Shown piece by piece: positions 5,405 through 63,900 of a DNA stretch of 64,000 nt. The translations under genes and the position numbers were made by a program. The notes under the pieces are model-generated. The model was not told the origin of the DNA. It did no database searches and worked only from the letters and a program-made list of their open reading frames with translations. Positions within the stretch are counted from its first letter, which is position 1. Every line of letters begins with the position of its first letter. This DNA comes from Petrosia ficiformis. Lineage: Eukaryota > Porifera > Demospongiae > Haplosclerida > Petrosiidae. The DNA lies in assembly GCA_947044365.1 (NCBI GenBank), contig OX345643.1, positions 1,201,001-1,265,000 of the forward strand, read 5' to 3'.

Positions 5405-5814
5405 GTCATGGTCATGTATATGTTTTGTAGTTCAAGATACATGTTTTGGGCTGTATCAAGATGAGCTTCAAGACAAGTGTCTGTATCTGACTGGAGTAGT
5501 TTAAAATCGGGTTGAGAAAGATGAGAAACCAGATTAACAAATTTAGGACGAGATGATGTCTCTGGATGCCTAGTAAGGAAATAAACATGAAATATGATTG
5601 ACTAACTGTGATATAGTTTTTATCTCACCAGCATTGTATCATCATTTCATATACTGGTCTAGGACAACCAGGAGGAGGAAACAGATGATATCCTGATTCC
5701 ACAAGATGCCAGCTGTTCATATAAGACACTGGTATCTTCACTTCGTGTCCAGTATATCTTCTCTTCAGTAAAAAAAAAATCTTCATCTGATGTTTTCAGT
5801 GAAGAGTTCTGTGA
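5405..5814 (-). pseudogene. RTK relict with the kinase core deleted
   Basis: The exon before the kinase domain (5' part, motif FFTEEKIYW) runs directly into the penultimate kinase exon (RLVESGY region) near 5706. Everything from the glycine loop to subdomain X is missing. The join is out of frame and reaches a stop soon after (reading SCGIRISS). The last kinase exon survives at about 5405-5569 (HPETSSRP region in intact copies). The breakpoint sits in the shared sequence GGCA/TCTTG, so one deletion explains it. Together with 7513-8125 it forms the remains of the cytoplasmic half of an RTK downstream of gene B. Confidence 0.85.
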
Positions 5815-7512: not shown

Positions 7513-8125
7513 ACAGTAGTAGGTACACATATTCCCCAATGTAGTATTGATTTGACTGTGCAATCATATAACATAACAAACTGTTATATAAGTAAACACT
7601 AAACTCTAATGAATAGAAAAGAGTACTGGGAATCAAACCCAGGGCCACTGACTTCAGCCATCAGTGCTCTCACCACTGAGCTATGACAACCAGACAACCA
7701 TCAGCACTTTCATAATACTCTATATATTCCACCAATGGTAGTGAATGCTTCATTCGCACACCACACATCCACTAAGTATGTGCTATTAGAACCTTCTTAG
7801 GAGTCGAGTGTAAACATTACTCCATCAGGAATAAAGCCTTACAAGTGGTTTTTAACAAAGCTATTAGCAATGCAGTAGTGTTACATAAGTGTATAGGTAT
7901 GTCTTTTATCTTAATCAATGAGTAACAGCAATATGAGCATATATTATGTAGTAAACAAATGGCTAAATATACTAACATGATAACTTACATTGTCATTATG
8001 TATATTGCTGACTGTTCATTTCATACATAGCATTAGTAACAGCATGTGTAGTTATGCCTGCCTCAGAATAGAATCTAATTGATTATAACTTTTCCAGGCT
8101 CCTCATAAATGACACCAGTAATGTA
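7513..8125 (-). pseudogene. Relict juxtamembrane exons of an RTK
   Basis: About 8000-8125 matches the Tyr-rich juxtamembrane exon of the RTK genes (AMYEM and SEAG regions recognisable) but carries small deletions. About 7513-7562 matches the short exon that normally encodes [15 protein letters not shown], with an internal deletion that shifts the frame. Both lie just downstream of the stop codon of gene B, in the order expected for an RTK, and continue into the kinase relict at 5405-5814. Confidence 0.75.
7621..7692 (-). other. tRNA-like sequence, probably a SINE head
   Basis: On the minus strand there is an A-box-like TAGCTCAGTGGTGAGAGCA and a B-box-like GGGTTTGATTCCC at tRNA spacing, with foldable D, anticodon (CTGAT/GTCAG) and T (CTGGG/CCCAG) stems. 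The acceptor stem does not pair and position 33 is not T, so a working tRNA is unlikely. A tRNA-derived SINE or tRNA pseudogene fits better. Confidence 0.55.
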
Positions 8126-8313: not shown

Positions 8314-9070
8314 TTAAATAAGATGATATGAGTATAATATATAATCGTCGTCAACTAAAGGTTCATCCAAAACATGTACATATGTGTATGTTGAATATTC
8401 TCCTGTTATATTGAAACAAATCATATTAAATTTCATTTATATTATCCAGTTAATACCTGTTGTTGTGTGTATATTATAGGATGGATTATCATCAGCAACC
8501 ACACGTTCGTCTGTGAGATAAAGAATTAATTATATTACAGTTTCATCAACTGTACTTTTTCCCTCTACCTGATATCATGTGTATATTATAAAATGGATTA
8601 TCATCAATATTCATATGTTCATCTGTGCATGGGATTAAGTATTTTTAAGCAAAATTATGCCATGTATGTTGTTTATACCTGATACTGTGTGTACATTATA
8701 AGATGGATTTTCGTCACTGATTATATGTTCACTTTCTATATAGAAAATATAATATAATTATATTCTAAGTTTGTATAATTAGATGTATGAATTTATAATG
8801 AAACTCTCATTTCCTTTTGTTGATATTAATACATGTTCAAGTTAATTGTCATAATAAGCCCTATAATTGCTGTTATTATAATAGTGTCAATACATTACCT
8901 GATACTGAATCATAAACTGGATTTTCAGTAGTAGTCACTTGTTTATCTGTAGAATATAAATTTATTCATGCACATTATTATAACAATTGATAGATTACTA
9001 TTGCATGTACTTGTGTTATCCATATTTGGTACATCATAGACACGATAATCATCAACAGTTTTATGTTTAT
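8314..9070 (-). other. Tyrosine-motif microexon array of gene B
   Basis: Five short phase-1/phase-1 exons (60, 48, 57, 54, 54 nt) plus the terminal exon. Core motifs in order: DDYRVYDVP, TENPVYDSVS, DENPSYNVHTVS, DDNPFYNIHMIS, DDNPSYNIHTTT, then the terminal YTYVHVLDEP. Four of the five contain NPxY, the consensus recognised by PTB domains and some endocytic adaptors (family knowledge). Confidence 0.8.
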
Positions 9071-19607: not shown

Positions 19608-22045
19608 TGTTTGTAAATTATGCAATAAAATCTAAATGAATGGTATTATTAGCTGTAGAACTAACCATCAGCTGTAGAATATATCATAGAACGCATAGAG
19701 TCTGATATAGAACTCATAAGAGAAGTGGTAGATATAGAACTCCTCATGTTATTAGATTCACGGAAGCCAATAGTGATCATACTCAAGGTAAAAATATTAG
19801 TTTCGGTTGTAATGATACTTGAAGGAGAGCCAGTAGTTTCAGATAGAATAGAACTCATTGTAGGACTGGTAAATTCAGATGTAGAACCCATTGTAAGAAT
19901 GGTAAATTCAGATGTAAAGCTCATTATAAGATTAGTAAATTCAGACGTAGAACTCATTATAGGATTAGTAGATTCAGATGTAGAACCCATTGTAGGATTA
20001 GAAAATTCAGAATATATCATGGAATGCATAGAGTCTGATATAGAACTCATAAGAGAAGTGGTAGATATAGAACTCATCACATTATTAGATTCAGGAAAGC
20101 CAATAGTGATCATACTCGTGGTAAAAATATTAGTTTTGGATGTAATGATACTCAAAGAAGAGCCAGTAGTTTCAGAAATAATAGAACTCCTTGTAAGACT
20201 CGTAAATTCAGATGTAAAACCCATTGTAGGATTAGGAAATTCAGACGTAGGACTCATTATAGGATTAGTAAATTCAGACGTAGAACTCATTATAGGATTA
20301 GTAAATTCAGAGATGACACTCGTGGTACTAAAACTCATAGCCATTGTTTCTATACAAATACAATTAACATTATGCATTGTGAATATATATAGTCTGCTAC
20401 AAAACGTGATTTGTTATTTCATTGGATATACAATCATTTCAAATTTCATTTCATAAATTCGAGGGTAGTTTAGTTTGTTGCTTAGTAAGTTGATAACTAA
20501 TATTAATTCTCAGCCATTTTTAGTTTATCTTCTCTATATGCACGAGGAACCTTATTGTACTTTCAGTTTGTGTACAAATAATTATTTCTATTGTGAATAT
20601 AAAAGTTCCTAACATGCAGGAATGCAACAACAAATTATCTTTTTGAAAGTAAACATAATATTTGTGACCATAACCTGGTCTATTTTTCAGGATTAAAATA
20701 CATGTCAATTAATAATATGTGAGCTAAACCAACAGCTAAAATAATAATGTTAAACGAATGATACCTAAGCTACATAATTATATAATAAATGTTTATAGGA
20801 ATAAACTTGTATAATTAATATAATTATTTGAATTAACAAATCACTTTTAGTATAACACTAACCAATTACTACAGACACAAGTGGATAGTGATTTTGATTT
20901 TCATTCAATATTCCATTCCTATTGTAATTTGGTGGTCCACTGTTCACTTGAAAATATAATCTCAAGTCACTGTCCATCACTCTAGGCTGAAATATACCTA
21001 AAACATCACCATTTTGAACTTGTATTGGTTGAGAGAGATTATACCATCTTAGGTTAGTAGTTGAAGTATCATTACTATCATTATATACAAGTGCATAAGA
21101 TGATCCTGTCTGTTCATATTCTCCTCCATCTGATATTCTCCAGAAACGAATTTCTGGTGATTGTGTTTCATTTTGGTCTTCTGCTCCAATTATTATATGT
21201 GTGATACTACTATTACATGTGAAACCAATATCTGGAAAGAACCTTTGCATGTTATTATATCCACTCACTCTTGTGATCTCTCTTGCTTGTTTTTTGATTT
21301 CATCTGAAGATATAAATCCACTGATACACTGAGGAGAATCTAAAAGGAGTGTGATACTCTAAAGACAAGTAATATCATAAGTATATAACATACTTGATTC
21401 TGGATGAATGAGTGGTCTCCTATTTATTCTTATTGGAGTAGAAAGTGTATACTCATTTTCATCAGTAGTATCGTAAATACTCTGATTATTAAAATTGTGA
21501 TGATAAAATCTAACCACACTATCTCCACCTGCTGGCTGATATATTCCCAACACTTGATTAGCAGTGAATTGAAGAGGAGTTGATAAACTGAATTGATAAA
21601 CTCCATCAGTATTGAAATTAGATGGACCAAGTATAATTTCTACTGAACTATCAACAACACGAGTATAAGTTGTTTCATCAGTCTTATTCCACAACCAGAT
21701 AGTAGGATATTCATCTCTATTATCAGTTTTAGTCCTAACATCCACACCTAAGAGCAAACCAGTAATAGTTCCAGTACAAGTGAACTCCAGACTAGGCATA
21801 ATTGAATGTCTATCATTTCTTAGTCGCATATTATGAAGATCACCTCTACCATCATTTATTTCTATTTGTTCAGCCTTTTGTACCAGTAAATCATAATCCA
21901 TGAATCCTTTAGTACATGATTCTACTACAATATAACATAGAAATTAAACATGTTCAAATGTTAAACTAGTCATGTACTACCGACCTGACAGAATCCGTGA
22001 CCAGCCACTGATAGTAAACCACAAAAAGAAATCGAATCCGTTCAT
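14330..22045 (-). CDS. Gene C: complete receptor tyrosine kinase (reference copy)
   Basis: Sixteen exons join into one 1162-residue frame. Signal peptide 21985-22045 ([10 protein letters not shown]), D1 21394-21924, D2 20863-21339, long linker 19666-20349, transmembrane 19010-19369, juxtamembrane 18708-18919, NPYN exon 18527-18589, [12 protein letters not shown] exon 16453-16524, FFTEEKIYW exon 16166-16305, kinase 15754-15967, 15626-15693, 15382-15535, 15236-15328, 14679-14792, 14545-14630, 14330-14489. The kinase shows LGSGQFGTV (glycine loop), VAIKTL (ATP lysine), FLQEA (helix C glutamate), HRDLAARN (catalytic loop with the tyrosine-kinase signature), [26 protein letters not shown] (twin activation-loop tyrosines, APE) and [14 protein letters not shown]. 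It should be an active membrane tyrosine kinase. The ligand is unknown. Juxtamembrane tyrosines (NPVYQS, NPIYGG, IYEEPG, LYSEAG, AMYGMN, NPYN) are likely docking sites. Confidence 0.9.
17239..17449. repeat. Near-perfect 99-bp-arm palindrome
   Basis: The left arm 17239-17337 and right arm 17351-17449 are exact reverse complements by eye over about 99 bases. The 13-base centre (GACCCGAAGGTCT) can itself pair GACC with GGTC around CGAA. It lies in the intron of gene C between the NPYN exon and the next exon. It contains no open frame. Likely a very young fold-back element; a transcribed copy would form a long hairpin RNA. Confidence 0.92.
17450..18526. other. Remainder of the long intron of gene C
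   Basis: AT-rich, no exon, repeat or RNA recognised. A small plus-strand frame at 17042-17227, left of the palindrome, has no supporting features. Confidence 0.4.
19571..19606. repeat. (TA)n microsatellite
   Basis: Pure dinucleotide run in the intron between the linker and transmembrane exons of gene C. Confidence 0.9.
19678..20343 (-). repeat. 333-bp tandem duplication in the linker exon of gene C
   Basis: The segment starting AATATATCAT at 19678 recurs at 20011, an offset of exactly 333 bases (111 codons), and similarity continues through the following [20 protein letters not shown] repeats. The duplication keeps the frame and makes this stalk (228 codons) far longer than those of genes H (54) or I (36 plus 19). 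Smaller 33- to 36-bp Ser/Thr repeats are nested inside. Confidence 0.85.
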
Positions 22046-23705: not shown

Positions 23706-26700
23706 TTTTTTTTTTTTTTTTTTTTTTTAAAAGTAAAAATTAAAATAAAATAAAATAAAAGTAGAAAGAAATTCAAAATAAAGTTAGAACAGAATTTAAA
23801 TATAAGAATTGGTGTTGATAAGGTCCATCAGTACGGTGTGATCTGGGAGATGGAATGAAGATCTAGCCCCACGAATACACTGAATAGCTGAGCGTAGCAA
23901 AGAGAAAGATAGGCGGCATCTCAACCAATTTAACATTTGACTATATGATTGTTCATCTCTTTTAATAGCTAACAGAGAAGCTAGCCTTTTATAAAAAATA
24001 GTAGCTTGCTTTGCCATACCCCCTGTTGCAGACATTACTATAGGTGTAAAGGTTGCAAACTCAATCTCTCGCACACGATTTTCATATGATCTTTTCTTGT
24101 TTTTCTCATGTTTCAAATATGATGCAGAGATACTTTCCTTTTTATTTGAAGGAGCATGAGGATTAAAAATTCTCACATCTATGAAAGACTTTTCAAATCT
24201 TCCACCCCAGAAACCATTCATGGCAATATCCAGGCGAGCACCTTCAGTAGTTATCGTTGACGCTGGAAAAGAAACTCCTTCAGGAATAGGTTGTAACTCA
24301 GGCTCTATCTTCACGTCATGACACACTTCAGTTAAAAGATGCGCAGTCAAATCTCTAACTTCGTTGTGCCTGATAGAAGGGTATGCACCTCGAGGACAGG
24401 AAAGTGCATGACTAACATTGAAACTTTGCCCACAGGCACAGTGAAGAGGAACATCCTTTGGCATCCAGCCATATCTCAATGCAAGTGCATCTGAAAAAGC
24501 TCTTTTGTGGAGGCAAAAGCCATACTCCTTAATTGGAAGGCACGTCAACCCTGCAGAAGAACCTCTCTCACTAGCAAGGTCCATACTTCGACATAGGTCT
24601 TCTGATAACGTTTCTCTTATCTCTGTAACTCGCTCAGAGTACCAGGTCTTCCTTTCTTGTACTAGATCACGTTTAAGAAGAATTTGTTCATAGGCTATTA
24701 CTGAGTATGGTGTGTCAAAATTCATCCTTTTACCTAATATCAAACAAATGAGAGGATCACATACTTTACGAGAAGAGGAATATTCTAGATCAGCCATTTT
24801 TGTTGGATTTAAGATACCTAAGCCACCAGCTCGAGCTGGAATTGAAAACAAGGATCTTAGATCATCACTAGGAGGTGGTTTTCTTGTAAGAGATGGAATA
24901 AACATGGAACGAATAGTTTCTTCCAATGGTGCAAAAAGCTCACTAATATCAGGCGTTGTTCTTGAAATAAAGGACCATTTATGCCTAAAACCATGTATGT
25001 AGGCAGCATAGGCGGCATGTGGTTGACACTGGGCTATTGATGATAGAGTGACAAGCTCACTCTTCCAAACTGCAATCTTCTCAATAATAAACTTATCAAC
25101 ATAAGATTTCGAACCAATGGGTGCACCCAAATGAGGTCTCCCTTCATATGTAATATTAACCCCTGTTCCATAGAAAACAGATACAGCTGAAGAGTAATGT
25201 TCTTCTTTTACCACCAACCACGTCTTAGAGGCATTGACAAAATATCCAAAGCCACTCCCATAAGTGACAATATCATTCCACCATTTCCTTATATCATTTA
25301 TCTTACCAACCGCAGCAGCATCATCTGCATACCAAACATTCTTAGCTAAAGGTAACTTGTTGATTAAAGGCACAGTAGACAATGCATAAAAAGGCATGGC
25401 CAAAGGGTCCCCCTGAGTAGTACCTTCTTCTGAGAACAATAGTTTTCCACCAATAAACAACTCAGACGAATTTCTGTAGGTATTAATAATGACGGTAGCT
25501 AAGGGAGGACAGATGAATTGAATATTATTTAGTGCAACCAAACGATTCAGACAATTAAAAGCATTACTAGCGTCTACAAGTAGAACAGCTTCAGTTTCGA
25601 CATCTTTGTAGGCATCTCTTATAGCATGTGCAGCTGCTTCCACACCAGCAATCTGACCAGCACAAAGTTGTGAGCTACCAACAGCCTCCTGAATGTCATC
25701 TCTCACCACAGAAAGAATGGCCTTAGCAATGATACGCCTAGGTACCTCCCCAATGCCAATCGGCCTCACCCCTGGACATTTGTCCAAGGCTATGAGACGA
25801 CAACAAAGTAGAGAAGAGATACCAGCAGGGTCAACAAATTCAACAGCAATACGTTTTGCAGTAAGAGCAAGGCTATGGCACAGATTCAGTGATGCTTTTT
25901 TATAAGATGTACATAACTTCCTCCAAGCCCAAGCATCAACACCAGACGGACCAGCAGCACCTGAGGTGTGTAGAGAGACTGATCTAACCAAGGCAGCGTC
26001 TATACTATCAAAAATAACTGGATGGGAATCCGGAGGAGAACCACGAATAATAGAATCTTCATTCAATGGTGCAGCGGCTGGATGTTTATCCTTAAGAATA
26101 TCATAAATCGATCTCCCATTATCTGTGACATCACTAGGGTGTAACAATGAGCTACGTCCACACTCTGATAATAAACTAATTGCAGCACCAGTTTTTCCCT
26201 CAAACATCAACTTAGTAAAAGACTTAGATATATATTGATTAAACTCACTAATTTGCGATTTATTTCTAGCATGTTGTCGTGTAAGGCGATCCTTGATCAC
26301 CCTACCTTCCTTAACCAATTCATTCAAATCTCCACCTAACCATAGTGCCATTCTCCGCTCAAGACAATCACAATGTTCTCTAGATTTAGAACTTCTTCTT
26401 GGTTTCTGTAAAACAAGAATAGGCATAACAATAGCAGCTTTCAAAGCAATAGATTCCAGTGGAGAACGTGTAGCAAATGCTTCAAAAAGTCTCGCAAGCT
26501 CGGAAACAAAGTGTTTTCCTTGCATTCCTTGTGGTAGTTTAAAACAGTTATTCTTCCATTCAGTTACTTCCTCATATGCTCTATTGACATCATCTATGAA
26601 TGTACCACCATCAACAGAACCCCACCTAAATGTAGCAGAAGACATTGGACGATAAGATGGCAGAGTAACAGATAAAGATGGCGGATCGGGCACCAATTGG

Positions 26701-27031
26701 AATGATGAATCACTAGGCGCTTCTGAGTCATCTGAAATCGAAGTTTGTGAAGTAGATGAATCCTGAATATTAACACAGTTTCCATATCGATAAGGAGCAC
26801 AGTTTTGACAAGAAATACCCACTTTCACGCATGAGCATTTTCTACACTTTCCTTTCGAATTACAAGAACAGCATGCGGGCATCTCGCTGTAAAGACACCA
26901 GTAGATAGACGATCAATATACCACTCTAAACTCAAAAACTACAACAACAGACTAACCACGAACAAAAGCCAACTTGAGAAACGATACACCGATCAACAAG
27001 CAGCAACCATTTTATTCAGGGCTAGTCAGTA
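23706..27031 (-). mobile_element. Full-length LINE with poly(A) tail and target-site duplication
   Basis: The 3.3-kb non-LTR retrotransposon is flanked by a perfect 12-bp duplication, CTGCACTATACT, at 23694-23705 and 27032-27043. The 3' poly(A) appears as the T run from 23705 to 23728 on the plus strand. The 5' untranslated part is about 26883-27031. The uninterrupted frame and intact duplication mean a recent insertion. The target is the terminal exon/3' flank of gene D. Confidence 0.93.
23796..26882 (-). CDS. LINE polyprotein: cysteine-rich N-terminus, reverse transcriptase, restriction-like endonuclease
   Basis: Intact 1028-codon frame starting MPACCSCNSKGKCRKCSC, followed by more cysteines to about residue 36, a dense cluster resembling CXC-type or zinc-binding repeats. 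The reverse transcriptase lies in the middle (about residues 340-620) with LVDASNAFN, GTTQGDPLAMPFY and the catalytic NVWYADDAAAV. The C-terminus has a Cys-Cys-His-His-like knuckle, CACGQSFNVSHALSCPRG, then ARLDIAMNG and SFIDVRIFNPHAP, which fit the (P/L)D...D core of a restriction-like endonuclease. This single-frame layout matches R2/NeSL-like LINEs and not the apurinic-endonuclease LINEs. I cannot fix the clade. The protein would nick the target and prime reverse transcription there. Confidence 0.9.
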   Translation of the reverse strand: MPACCSCNSKGKCRKCSCVKVGISCQNCAPYRYGNCVNIQDSSTSQTSISDDSEAPSDSSFQLVPDPPSLSVTLPSYRPMSSATFRWGSVDGGTFIDDVNRAYEEVTEWKNNCFKLPQGMQGKHFVSELARLFEAFATRSPLESIALKAAIVMPILVLQKPRRSSKSREHCDCLERRMALWLGGDLNELVKEGRVIKDRLTRQHARNKSQISEFNQYISKSFTKLMFEGKTGAAISLLSECGRSSLLHPSDVTDNGRSIYDILKDKHPAAAPLNEDSIIRGSPPDSHPVIFDSIDAALVRSVSLHTSGAAGPSGVDAWAWRKLCTSYKKASLNLCHSLALTAKRIAVEFVDPAGISSLLCCRLIALDKCPGVRPIGIGEVPRRIIAKAILSVVRDDIQEAVGSSQLCAGQIAGVEAAAHAIRDAYKDVETEAVLLVDASNAFNCLNRLVALNNIQFICPPLATVIINTYRNSSELFIGGKLLFSEEGTTQGDPLAMPFYALSTVPLINKLPLAKNVWYADDAAAVGKINDIRKWWNDIVTYGSGFGYFVNASKTWLVVKEEHYSSAVSVFYGTGVNITYEGRPHLGAPIGSKSYVDKFIIEKIAVWKSELVTLSSIAQCQPHAAYAAYIHGFRHKWSFISRTTPDISELFAPLEETIRSMFIPSLTRKPPPSDDLRSLFSIPARAGGLGILNPTKMADLEYSSSRKVCDPLICLILGKRMNFDTPYSVIAYEQILLKRDLVQERKTWYSERVTEIRETLSEDLCRSMDLASERGSSAGLTCLPIKEYGFCLHKRAFSDALALRYGWMPKDVPLHCACGQSFNVSHALSCPRGAYPSIRHNEVRDLTAHLLTEVCHDVKIEPELQPIPEGVSFPASTITTEGARLDIAMNGFWGGRFEKSFIDVRIFNPHAPSNKKESISASYLKHEKNKKRSYENRVREIEFATFTPIVMSATGGMAKQATIFYKRLASLLAIKRDEQSYSQMLNWLRCRLSFSLLRSAIQCIRGARSSFHLPDHTVLMDLINTNSYI

Positions 27032-27041
27032 CTGCACTATA

Positions 27042-28800
27042 CTAAACAAAGAGCAAGTAGAGTAACTTATTCGATATATATATATCATCATTCTCAACAA
27101 CAGGTTCATCCAAAACATGTACATATGAGTATGTATTATCATCATCAGTAGTCAAATGTTCACCTGTATGTAAATATTATAAAAATTATGATGAATTTCA
27201 AGTTAAATTAAAAATTAGAATAATCTAATGTTCACCTGATGCTGTGTGTATATTATAAGATGGATTGTCATCAGTAATCACATGTTTATCTGTGAAGATC
27301 ATCACTGAGAGTAATTATCAAAACATTATGTATACCTGATACTGATTAATTGACCATGATATAATTACTCATCAGTTTAATTATCCATATGGATCAAATT
27401 ATATATACTGTCTATACCTGATACTGTCTGTACATCATAGGATGGATAATCATCTGTAAGCATTTGTTCATCTGTGAGATTACAAGAACTGAATCATCAC
27501 TGAGACTATATATTACTTTTTTATTATCATTATTATTATGTATGCTATACCTGATACTGTTGGTATATTAGTAGATGGAGTATCATAAATAATCCCATGT
27601 TTATCTGTGAAATTAAGAAATGATTATCAATGAGATTAATTATAAATTGTCCTGTATACCTGATATGGTGTATGTATTATAAAATGGATTATCTTCAGTA
27701 GTCACATGTTCATCTGTAAAATTTAAGACAGATTATGTAACATTTTCAAGCTGATGTGTCATACAATATTGTACCTGATACTGTGTGTATAATATCATAT
27801 GATGGATAATCATAAGTGAGCATATGCTCATCTGTGAGTGTATAAAAATGGATCATCTTTGACGCTAATTATCAATACATTATGTATGTTTCTATACCTG
27901 ATACTGTGTGTATATTATAAGATTGATTATCCTCAATAACCACATGTTCATCTGTGGGAAGTTAGAAATAGTTATAATAATAGTAATTTCTGACATGATA
28001 TAGCACAAAACTATTTGTGTCAGTAAAAAACTGTTCATCATCAGAAAATTAACCTAATGATTATACTGTTAGTAAATGTGTACATTTTGCAGTATACTGT
28101 TTTAAGTGTTTATAATTGTTAATTATACTGATGTTTATATATATATACATGTAAGATTATTATGTATGTGTGTGTGCATGTATGTGGGTATATTCTATTC
28201 ATACTTAATACTGCTTGTAACTGATAAGCTGGATTGGCATTAACGAGAACATTTTCATCTGTATGTATGAAAATTCAATGAGAAGAAAATAACGTTATCT
28301 GTTTTGTGTATAATCTAGTGGTGTTATTAATCTATTATACATTTATACCTTTACTAGAGTTCATATTTGTTGTTCTCTTTCTATGTTTCACTATTAATAT
28401 TATTATCATTATAATAATAAATATAATAATAGACAACAGAAGAAGACCTGTTCCAACTCCAGCTATTACTTTCAACTGTACAGGAAATCCTTTATAAGAA
28501 TTAATCAAATTTGATGATAAAATACAAAATTATAATAATTATACATTTAATTTGCATATATCTTGTTTTATAACGACACATGATATGCTTGAATTGTATT
28601 TAGTCAAAAATACTTATTTTAATGTAATAACACTTTATGAATTCAGTTTTAGCAGCATGTTTGTCAATGAGCATGGAGAGCTACATTTCATGAGGAAATA
28701 TTTGTAAAACACAAGTACATACCTTTCAATGTTTGTGATGTAGAGTTCATTGAACTTGTGATGTTTGATATAGACCTGGTAGGAAGACTCATGGATGAGA
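27042..28800 (-). CDS. Gene D: NPxY-tail receptor, 3' part; no usable ectodomain
   Basis: Exons: linker 28723-28800, transmembrane 28349-28468 (VIAGVGTGLL then Ile-rich helix, stop-transfer KHRKRTT), eight tyrosine microexons (28205-28258, 27898-27951, 27775-27831, 27660-27713, 27551-27604, 27418-27471, 27236-27289, and a decayed one near 27337), and a terminal exon from 27163 to a stop at 27042. The last exon reads TYSYVHVLDEPVVEND, then loses the DDYI end seen in gene J and runs on to a new stop that falls in the LINE target duplication. D1 is absent and only fragments of D2 and the signal peptide exist upstream, inside an inverted-repeat element. It is a pseudogene unless it is spliced to the ectodomain of gene E, whose donors have the right phase. 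Confidence 0.65.
27236..28258 (-). other. Tyrosine-motif microexon array of gene D
   Basis: Seven well-formed microexons, six of exactly 54 nt and one of 57, all phase 1/1. Core motifs from 5' to 3': NANPAYQLQAVL, EDNQSYNIHTVS, DYPSYDIIHTVS, EDNPFYNTYTIS, IIYDTPSTNIPTVS (type B, Tyr shifted towards the N-terminus), DDYPSYDVQTVS, DDNPSYNIHTAS. A donor-only remnant at 27337 marks a lost copy. Confidence 0.85.
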
Positions 28801-53403: not shown

Positions 53404-61108
<7,705 letters not shown>

Positions 61109-61572
61109 CTCTGACTAGTGACTGCCTTTACTCTGAAGATAGGATGGATCACGGCTAGCTCATTTTGTAATTATAGGGTTTCCAACTGACTTAGTACTAG
61201 CCCCTCCTCTTTTTTCACAAACTGGTTTTAGAGTTAGTCAAGTGAGCTTCAACTATAACTACAACCTATCATACTAAAATATATAATGATATAATTATAA
61301 TAAATATGTAGCTATATAATATAATTATAGATACGTATCTATATGTATATATAAATATAAGCCATATGACATTCTGGCTTTTAAACCCAATGTTGTCACT
61401 GTGTTGTCAGTATATAAATTACACAAATCTTTTGTGTAATAATAATAAACTAGTCTATGTGTATAACAAAAAAAATATTAACATTCAAATGAAAGAAATA
61501 AAGTCCACATACAGAAATAGAACCAAATCAATACATAATAACTAACTTTACATACACATTTTTTCTTTACAG
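61109..61572. other. Spacer upstream of gene I
   Basis: Presumed promoter region of gene I. AT-rich, with no confident motif or exon. Confidence 0.4.
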
Positions 61573-61842
61573 TCCGGGATACAGATTGTGGGCTGTATCA
61601 AGACTAGTTCCAAGACAAGTATCTATTTCTGATTTAAAATTAGGTTGATAAAGATCAGAAACCAGATCAACAAATGTAGGACGAGATGATTTTTCTGGAT
61701 GCCTAGTAAGAAACATATGAATTTTATCTCACAGTCATTGATAATATGCCTTGTCTCACCAACATTGTATCATCATTTCGTATACTGGTGTAGGACAACC
61801 AGGAGGAGGAAGACAATAACCTGATTCCACAATACGATTGCA
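61573..61842 (-). pseudogene. Relict of the last two kinase exons, downstream of gene J
   Basis: 61760-61842 is the penultimate kinase exon (in frame, one codon shorter, IVESGYCLPPPPG-like). About 61573-61702 is the last exon with a deletion of several bases that shifts the frame. No other kinase exon lies between it and gene J. The arrangement repeats that downstream of gene B: NPxY tail, stop, then decayed RTK cytoplasmic exons. Confidence 0.75.
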
Positions 61843-62526: not shown

Positions 62527-63396
62527 TTATATATAATCATCCTCCACAACAGGTTCATCCAATACATGTACATATGAGTATGTATTATCATCATCAGTAG
62601 TAAAATGTTCACCTGTAACAGTTTAATAATCATGTCAACTCTAGAAAATAGAATCATATCATTTATACCTGATACTGTGTGTACATTATAGGATGGATTC
62701 TTCTCAGTAGTCACAGGTTCTTCTGTGAGTTTAACAGTTTATCATCATTGAGACTAATTATCAATACATTATGTATATTGTCTATACCTGATACTGTAGG
62801 TATATTATTAATTGGAGTATCATAAATAATCACATGTTCTTCTGTGAGGTTAACAACTGATCATCACTGAGACTAATTATCAATACATTATCTATACCTG
62901 ATACTGTGTGTATATTATATGATGGATTCTCCTCAGGAGTCACATGTTCATCTGTGAGATGATCAATTGAGACTAACTATCAATACATTCTGTATTATTG
63001 TCTATACCTGATACTGTGTGTATATTAAAAAATGGAGTATCATAAATAATCACATGTTCTTCTGTGAAGTTAACTGATCATCACTGATATTAATTATCAA
63101 TACATTATGTATATTGTCTATACCTGATACTGTAGGTATATTATTAATTGGAGTATCATAAATAATCACACGTTCTTCTGTGAGGTTAACAACTGATCAT
63201 CACTGAGATTAATTACCAATACATTATCTATACCTGATACTGTGTGTATATTATAAGATGGATTGACCTCAGCAGTCACTTGTTCATCTGTGCATGTGAA
63301 ATGAATAATTGATTACATTTATGTATATAGTACTGTTTATACCTGGTACTGTATGCATATTATAAGATGGATTATCATCAGTAGTCAGATATTTGC
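62527..63396 (-). CDS. Gene J: NPxY-tail receptor, 3' end only (continues beyond right edge)
   Basis: Seven tyrosine microexons, each exactly 54 nt (63343-63396, 63234-63287, 63124-63177, 63008-63061, 62898-62951, 62788-62841, 62669-62722), and a terminal exon 62527-62612 ending YVHVLDEPVVEDDYI and stop. All are phase 1/1 with clean GT-AG borders. Introns are only about 55-65 nt, giving a period near 110 bp. Every frame is open, so this is the best-preserved NPxY tail in the window. The transmembrane exon and ectodomain must lie to the right. The family role is unknown; repeated NPxY motifs suggest PTB-domain adaptor binding when phosphorylated, or clathrin-adaptor sorting (inference). Confidence 0.85.
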
Positions 63397-63489: not shown

Positions 63490-63808
63490 TTATGTTAGTA
63501 AATATGTACATATTGTTATTATGTTAGTAAATATGTACACACTGTTATTATGTTAGTAAATATGTACATACTGGTATTATGTTAGTAAATATGTACATAC
63601 TGTTATTATGTTAGTAAATATGTACATACTGTTATTATGTTAGTAAATATGTACATACTGTTATTATGTTAGTAAATATGTACATACTGTTATTATGTTA
63701 GTAAATATGTACATACTGTTATTATGTTAGTAAATATGTACATACTGTTATTATGTTAGTAAATTTGTACATACTGGTATTATGTTAGTAAATATGTACA
63801 TACTGGTA
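63490..63808. repeat. 29-bp minisatellite, 11 copies
   Basis: Unit TTATTATGTTAGTAAATATG plus TACATACTG, eleven near-identical copies in an intron of gene J. One diverged unit (TGTTAGTAAATGTGTACAT) is present at the matching place in gene D near 28071, so the array grew from a pre-existing single copy. Confidence 0.92.
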
Positions 63809-63900
63809 TTACCCTCGCCGCGTAGCGTAGGCGGAAGGGTACGGTAATTGTTTTGTCTGTGTGTGTGTGTCTGTCTGTCTGTCTGTCTGTCTGTTAGCAA
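63809..63900. repeat. End of a dispersed repeat with (TCTG)n
   Basis: The GC-richer hairpin-like CCCTCGCCGCGTAGCGTAGG followed by a (TG)n/(TCTG)n run. The CCCTC...GAGGG motif also occurs at 23215. It is cut by the window edge, so its nature stays open. Confidence 0.5.

Follow-up and report, generated by a model that had tools for sequence, protein, structure and literature searches.

A kinase-less gene from a sponge receptor tyrosine kinase family, with a predicted cytoplasmic tail of tandem 54-nt tyrosine-motif exons in Petrosia ficiformis

Introduction

Receptor tails in which a tyrosine-bearing unit is repeated have been described from choanoflagellates. RTKB2 of Monosiga brevicollis is described with six RM2 repeats, each with a conserved tyrosine, and an isolated RM2 unit was phosphorylated by the receptor kinase and subsequently bound by an SH2 domain (PMC3584944). 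The gene considered here, gene E of the sponge Petrosia ficiformis, likewise has a tail of repeated tyrosine units, but the RM2 unit is about 80 residues long and stands in the tail of a receptor with its own kinase, whereas the gene E unit has 18 codons, occupies one exon and belongs to a kinase-less product; the words 'exon' and 'NPXY' are absent from the text of the RM2 paper (PMC3584944). Choanoflagellate YxxP-repeat transmembrane proteins and BCAR1/p130Cas are reported to have, like gene E, multiple YxxP motifs in a cytosolic part. Three of the choanoflagellate proteins have SH2-like domains, and neither an NPxY array nor an ectodomain shared with a neighbouring receptor tyrosine kinase (RTK) is mentioned in the passages on them; the source also states that pYDVP peptides were bound by the SH2 domain of Monosiga crka1 and that Amphimedon has crka (PMC5043372).

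Relatives of gene E are also predicted in the sponge Amphimedon queenslandica, namely P0005 (LOC109590107, with a kinase) and P0012 (LOC105312809, without one). These are like gene E in their homologous ectodomain, transmembrane (TM) segment and NPxY motifs, in the YDEP of P0012 and in the presence of both kinase-bearing and kinase-less members; they differ in that the Amphimedon kinase-less tails, known from protein sequences, have one to three NPxY each, versus four in gene E. More distant parallels are found in the allorecognition complex of Hydractinia, a tandem cluster of cell-surface receptors with tyrosine-motif tails and immunoglobulin-type ectodomains, and in fibrillar collagen, with tandem 54-bp exons that arose from exon duplication. 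The former resembles the gene E cluster in its clustering and tyrosine tails, but the ectodomains differ and no link connects the two; the latter has the same 54-nt exon length but is unrelated and forms an extracellular triple helix.

The earlier note on this DNA knew of no described receptor family built in this way. That statement holds insofar as the literature search yielded no paper recognised as describing a cassette-built receptor family, but it has to be narrowed, given the predicted Amphimedon relatives and the repeat-tyrosine tails of choanoflagellates. By analogy with the RM2 and YxxP-repeat tails already known, the gene E arrangement may be regarded as a variant on them.

Exon Structure and Predicted Product of Gene E

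The window is the whole stretch of 64,000 nucleotides that was analysed (C8:1201001-1265000, C8 being its contig), and the genome searched comprised 191 Mb in 29 contigs. Gene E denotes the array-bearing gene and gene D its downstream neighbour, both on the minus strand; most of gene E lies past the window end and was read in the sequence L009. Seven consecutive 54-nt exons in phase 1/1, separated by introns of about 55–65 nt and each encoding one NPxY motif, had been proposed. The exons were borne out in the DNA on the minus strand, with ag/gt flanks and open frames, and the spacers measured 55, 56, 62, 56, 56 and 65 nt. The motif assignment was correct for four of the seven cassettes, which carry NPSY, but in the other three the motif is IIYDTP, and N or F replaces Y at the NPxY place. 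The paralogous arrays expected elsewhere in the window are present, with six and four cassettes (Table 1).

Table 1. Features of gene E, gene D and neighbouring sequence. Positions are those of the window unless L009 is given (window = L009 + 62000).
Feature	Position	Strand	Description
Gene E signal-peptide exon	L009 7432-7492		61 nt
Gene E ecto1 exon			531 nt
Gene E ecto2 exon			471 nt
Gene E stalk exon			108 nt
Gene E TM exon	L009 2867-3007		141 nt
Gene E cassette 1	63343-63396	-	54 nt, phase 1/1, ag/gt; KYLTTDDNPSYNMHTVP; NPSY
Gene E cassette 2	63234-63287	-	54 nt; EQVTAEVNPSYNIHTVS; NPSY
Gene E cassette 3	63124-63177	-	54 nt; ERVIIYDTPINNIPTVS; YDTP, without NPxY
Gene E cassette 4	63008-63061	-	54 nt; EHVIIYDTPFFNIHTVS; YDTP, without NPxY
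Gene E cassette 5	62898-62951	-	54 nt; EHVTPEENPSYNIHTVS; NPSY
Gene E cassette 6	62788-62841	-	54 nt; EHVIIYDTPINNIPTVS; YDTP, without NPxY
Gene E cassette 7	62669-62722	-	54 nt; EPVTTEKNPSYNVHTVS; NPSY
Gene E terminal exon	62527-62612	-	86 nt, ends in stop; GEHFTTDDDNTYSYVHVLDEPVVEDDYI
Kinase C-lobe relic, between gene E stop and gene D start	61552-61842	-	tblastn with Amphimedon P0005, E 7e-14; internal stops
Gene D start codon region and two ectodomain frames	59854-61108	-	
Gene D two open frames, TM and juxtamembrane	57529-58293	-	NPVY and NPMY
Gene D tyrosine kinase exons	53416-55196	-	
Array-type TM region upstream of second array	28262-28557	-	
Second array	27236-27951	-	six cassettes: 54, 57, 54, 54, 54, 54 nt
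Third array	8457-8946	-	four cassettes: 48, 57, 54, 54 nt
Kinase C-lobe relic behind the 8k array	5416-5775	-	

The gene E array repeats with a period of 110 nt and a higher-order period of 336 nt, which fits tandem duplication of exon together with intron. The first cassettes of the arrays A1315, A1331, A1346 and A1361 resemble cassette 1 of gene E and also start with GC. By eye, an end like that of the terminal exon was readable in L019 and partly in L017. These ends read ..DEPVVEDDYI in gene E, ..DEPVVENDYV in L019 and ..DEPLLDNDYI in L017, so that distant arrays are alike at this place; the conserved end may be a motif of its own, e.g., a C-terminal PDZ ligand. A 29-nt minisatellite (11 copies, 97% match, window 63490-63811) lies in the intron between the TM exon and cassette 1.

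The predicted gene E product of 591 residues comprises a signal peptide, two ectodomains, a stalk, a TM segment, the seven cassettes and the terminal exon. Phase 1 was found at all 12 introns of the model, those after exons 1 and 2 also being short (66 and 49 nt), and the TM exon is conserved in the five genes read (gene E and four paralogues). The two tandem ectodomains aligned with Amphimedon P0005 at 34% identity over 371 columns (E 2e-45), and gene E also has the TM segment and the cytoplasmic NPxY motifs of the LOC109590107 sponge RTK family. A kinase is absent from the 591-residue model, and a family-kinase tblastn of L009 from signal peptide to stop was empty. With only the relic downstream, gene E is not itself an RTK but a paralogue without a kinase within a sponge RTK family.

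No Pfam match was obtained for the gene E ectodomains, and their fold matches lie only within the range of common arrangements. Eph receptors carry FN3 and SAM domains; neither was matched when Pfam was run on gene E, the one member scanned whole (E up to 0.1). Similarly, at the same threshold the 591-residue model had no Pfam match to the N-terminal SH3 and FAT-like domains of BCAR1/Cas, and no ITIM or ITAM pattern ([SIVL]xYxx[IVL], Yxx[IL]) occurs in the gene E tail.

Coding Evidence across the Arrays

A profile built from 13 cassettes of the window, including the seven of gene E, was used to scan nine sequences and found 52 places, 44 of them with AG/GT at exactly 54 nt, versus one weak place in the reversed sequences. 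Twelve arrays were additionally read by motif, the motif codons being found first and a donor of CAG or CGG before GT, together with certain codons, then being demanded; owing to these demands damaged cassettes (two in L019) were passed over and a 51-nt cassette in L015 was missed. This reading gave 64 cassettes, of which 56 have 54 nt, three have 57, three 48 and one 45, the remaining one being without a usable acceptor, and their number varies from 1 to 8 per array. All 63 usable acceptors are in phase 1, and every one of these 63 cassettes is open in the phase-1 frame, compared with 10 and 1 for the other two frames. Each of the 63 holds a tyrosine, in NPxY (44), in YD[TI]P (9, among them the YDTPSY cassette of L017, which retains a second tyrosine) or in neither motif (10). 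The picture of self-contained tyrosine-motif exons forming the tail of a membrane receptor is thus supported, with a cassette number that varies between paralogues, but an array is not confined to a single motif type: there are two main classes, NPxY and YDTP, and variants such as DDYPSYD.

Among 52 distinct 54-mers, codon position 2 varied least (mean entropy 0.50 vs. 0.76 and 0.57 for the other positions). Four recent paralogues gave a pN/pS of 0.61, i.e., weak purifying selection, with introns conserved at 94% vs. 95% for exons. Between gene E's own cassettes pN/pS was about 2, which mostly reflects the difference between NPSY and YDTP in pairs that are not independent. The order and class of the cassettes agree in A1315, A1331 and A1361, and A1346 agrees with one cassette missing, which indicates that positions keep their identity. 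At two places in L018 (488-541, KHVITLNDNPSYNIHTT, and 998-1051, KHVITINDNPSYNIHTT) one codon was gained and another lost, the cassette still having 54 nt.

The Receptor Cluster and Gene D

Co-oriented paralogues with a common ectodomain, ending either in a tyrosine kinase or in a cassette array, form a cluster that spans about 1 Mb of a single contig and contains dozens of copies. A 177-residue ecto1 query matched 137 places (129 on C8), the low-identity rows being partly ecto2, and the array-type TM exon gave 47 matches (46 on C8), 17 of them strong, with at least 63 bits, and the other 30 weaker. The exact NPSYN pattern was found at 97 places, 92 on C8 and five on C1, versus one for the reversed pattern; the places on C8 group into 50 clusters. 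Such a cluster follows at most 4.5 kb behind 37 of the 46 TM matches on C8, on the same strand, and nine have no exact-pattern cassette behind them within that distance. The YDTP pattern occurred at eight places, all on C8. Of 47 matches to the family kinase exon, 34 fall in C8 1.049-1.401 Mb. The array clusters at 0.93-0.99 and 1.56-1.80 Mb of C8 contain no such match, which means that some arrays have no kinase partner next to them.

When rows were picked by hand from the ecto1, TM-exon and kinase-exon matches, the order of tails from 1361.9 to 1287 kb was found to be array, kinase, repeated five times; below 1287 kb there follow one more kinase tail, gene E (array) and gene D (kinase), and farther down the order is mixed. 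Tandem duplication of a two-gene unit would be a simple cause of this alternation. Gene D has an intact set of kinase motifs, with APE kept, and no YDTP was seen in its juxtamembrane frames, whereas the gene E tail has it. In DNA, genes E and D are 99.4% identical in ecto1 and 99.6% in ecto2, with a runner-up of 92.7% for ecto1 (15 other ecto1 compared; ecto2 for 12 genes only), and a homology block at L009 4778-7874 has 92% identity over 3148 columns. The ectodomains of other array/kinase pairs show no clear grouping by pair, E and D being the clear case.

Kinase C-lobe relics lie behind two arrays of the window (Table 1). L011, L012/L014 and L016 also contain degenerate pieces of kinase, not always behind an array. 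These relics beside arrays make the array receptors look derived from kinase receptors, and we infer that the change ran in this direction. The ecto1 of two array paralogues contains a stop. Upstream of the second array is an array-type TM region, and no ectodomain frame was found between it and the upstream kinase gene (kinase near 33-31k). This array (27236-28557 with its TM region) is either a relic that lacks its head or serves the 37k ectodomain as an alternative tail; given its place after a kinase gene, splicing might join one ectodomain to either of two tails.

Other elements were observed in the window. An open frame of 1038 residues (23796-26912, minus strand) resembles, by eye, the reverse transcriptase of a non-LTR retrotransposon. 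At 19676-20311, the Ser/Thr-rich frame of a nearby receptor contains a 333-bp repeat unit that itself has a 33-nt period, which suggests a stalk of variable length there. A tRNA match (7625-7684, minus strand) scored 34.5 bits, above the Rfam gathering score.

Relatives in Amphimedon queenslandica

With the first 480 residues of P0005 as query, 20 proteins were found, 19 of them named Amphimedon, among the candidates scored, i.e., those sharing most words; the tail alone as query found no relative. Six distinct, apparently kinase-less tails were recognised (P0008, P0010, P0011, P0012, P0017 and P0018). P0014 repeats P0012 and was hence not counted as distinct, P0020 (a TM segment and a short tail without NPxY) was left out of the tail counts, and P0011 was kept among the six with a weak match to P0019 (36% over 33 residues). 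NPxY occurs in all six tails, nine in total against 0.13 expected, and YDxP in four of six against 0.07 expected, neither count being reached in 5000 shuffles. The tail of P0012 has NPAY, NPAY and YDEP, and that of P0010 three NPAY, spaced 17 and 14 residues apart, and then YDEP. The juxtamembrane regions of four kinase-bearing proteins compared have NPxY and lack YDxP. NPxY is thus family-wide, and YDxP goes with the kinase-less tail.

P0015, P0016, P0021, P0023 and P0024 were rejected as kinase-less tails, as they align with the juxtamembrane region of the kinase-bearing P0019 or P0009; judged from sequence they may be kinase genes cut short, and P0024 runs into a kinase start. The five RTK-like Amphimedon tails have eight NPxY and no YDxP. 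In the models P0014, P0013 and P0022, the end of a kinase runs into the start of the next receptor (that of P0012 in P0014), and P0009 continues from an ectodomain and kinase into another ectodomain. Such fused models would be expected if genes of this kind lie next to each other in Amphimedon too.

Discussion

In a type I membrane receptor, the gene E segment would serve as the cytoplasmic tail, to which every 54-nt exon would contribute 18 codons and one docking motif, either a PTB-type NPSY or a Crk-type YDTP. A common ligand or a contact between ectodomains would join this receptor with a kinase paralogue, above all the adjacent gene D, whose kinase would phosphorylate the cassettes in trans; the phosphorylated tail would then recruit several PTB and SH2 adaptors, the number and order of cassettes determining the valency and type of output. 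In the IRS-type PTB consensus, position -8 relative to NPxY is hydrophobic. Of the 43 NPxY cassettes that reach back that far, 42 have V, I, M or L at this position, and none of the 44 NPxY cassettes has a hydrophobic residue at -5, so the IRS type fits better than the Shc or clathrin types, and the cassettes agree with a predicted IRS-type PTB ligand pattern. Eight IRS-type and 10 other PTB matches were found in the genome, and YDxP, by analogy, would fit a Crk-type SH2 domain. In the Amphimedon tails inspected the hydrophobic residue before NPAY has no regular -8 place, and the IRS-type reading may not carry over there. The -8 pattern, the PTB matches and the YDxP/Crk and RM2 precedents point to a trans-phosphorylated scaffold co-receptor. 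We consider it moderately probable that gene E encodes a co-receptor without a kinase, that a paired receptor kinase phosphorylates its cassettes in trans and that these recruit PTB/SH2 adaptors; for this gene itself we infer expression, splicing, phosphorylation, pairing and the identity of the adaptors. Arguing against this reading are the weak selection and the near-equal conservation of introns and exons in four recent paralogues, the poor grouping of ectodomains by pair outside E and D, the array clusters with no family kinase exon, the nine TM exons with no exact-pattern cassette behind them and the failure of a search with the tail alone to retrieve a relative.

The same lack of a kinase, the ectodomain shared with gene D and the repetition of NPxY would also suit a decoy or endocytic receptor, the tail of which binds phosphorylation-independent PTB adaptors, clears ligand and damps the paired kinase, with tyrosine phosphorylation not being central. 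This is unlikely, as no FxNPxY occurs in the tail, the -5 position is never hydrophobic, YDTP is to our knowledge not an endocytic motif and YDxP is found in Amphimedon kinase-less tails as well. A quite improbable reading is that the arrays are mostly relics, decaying by-products of tandem kinase-receptor duplication in which the array expands neutrally. The kinase relics adjoining arrays, the splice sites lost in some cassettes, the ecto1 stop in two array paralogues and the weak selection among paralogues are in its favour; nevertheless, a phase-1 frame open throughout, a motif-class order kept in A1315, A1331, A1361 and A1346, the last of which lacks one cassette, and a motif content in common with Amphimedon argue against it.

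Two other proposals are compatible with the co-receptor. Alternative splicing of single cassettes could tune the number of docking sites within one gene, a suggestion that may be entertained tentatively: all cassettes are symmetric, the 63 usable ones in 12 arrays all being in phase 1 with lengths that are multiples of three, and Amphimedon P0012 is named isoform X2 by its source, which shows only that more than one form is predicted. However, tandem duplication of exon and intron in a phase-1 gene gives symmetric cassettes anyway, so that symmetry, a property of the whole gene, is by itself no argument for skipping, and the splice sites are canonical at all seven cassettes of gene E. Rather more doubtful is an immune or allorecognition role, in which an expanding, exchange-prone cluster would supply paired kinase and kinase-less forms for recognition of self or microbes. 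The extent and copy number of the cluster, the near-identical ectodomains of neighbours and the mixed ectodomain relationships would be in keeping with it, but the ectodomain has no Pfam match and only common-range fold matches, an ITIM-like pattern occurs in just one of the 63 cassettes of the family, and expansion does not in itself show immunity.

Significance

Taken further, the co-receptor reading leads to a broader and speculative proposal: one ectodomain may be kept with two tails side by side, a kinase and a multi-site docking scaffold, in pairs spread by tandem duplication, the valency and the PTB/SH2 mix being set by the counting and ordering of 54-nt cassettes, possibly with skipping, and maybe in the service of demosponge recognition. 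If this is true, an early-branching animal lineage would divide RTK signalling between an enzyme and a modular docking scaffold that have the same recognition domain, and would multiply its docking sites one exon at a time. Such cassettes would permit a direct test of how the number and type of sites affect the signal, and the relatives in Amphimedon make the two-part system testable in a second sponge. The cluster would also be a candidate for sponge recognition genes.
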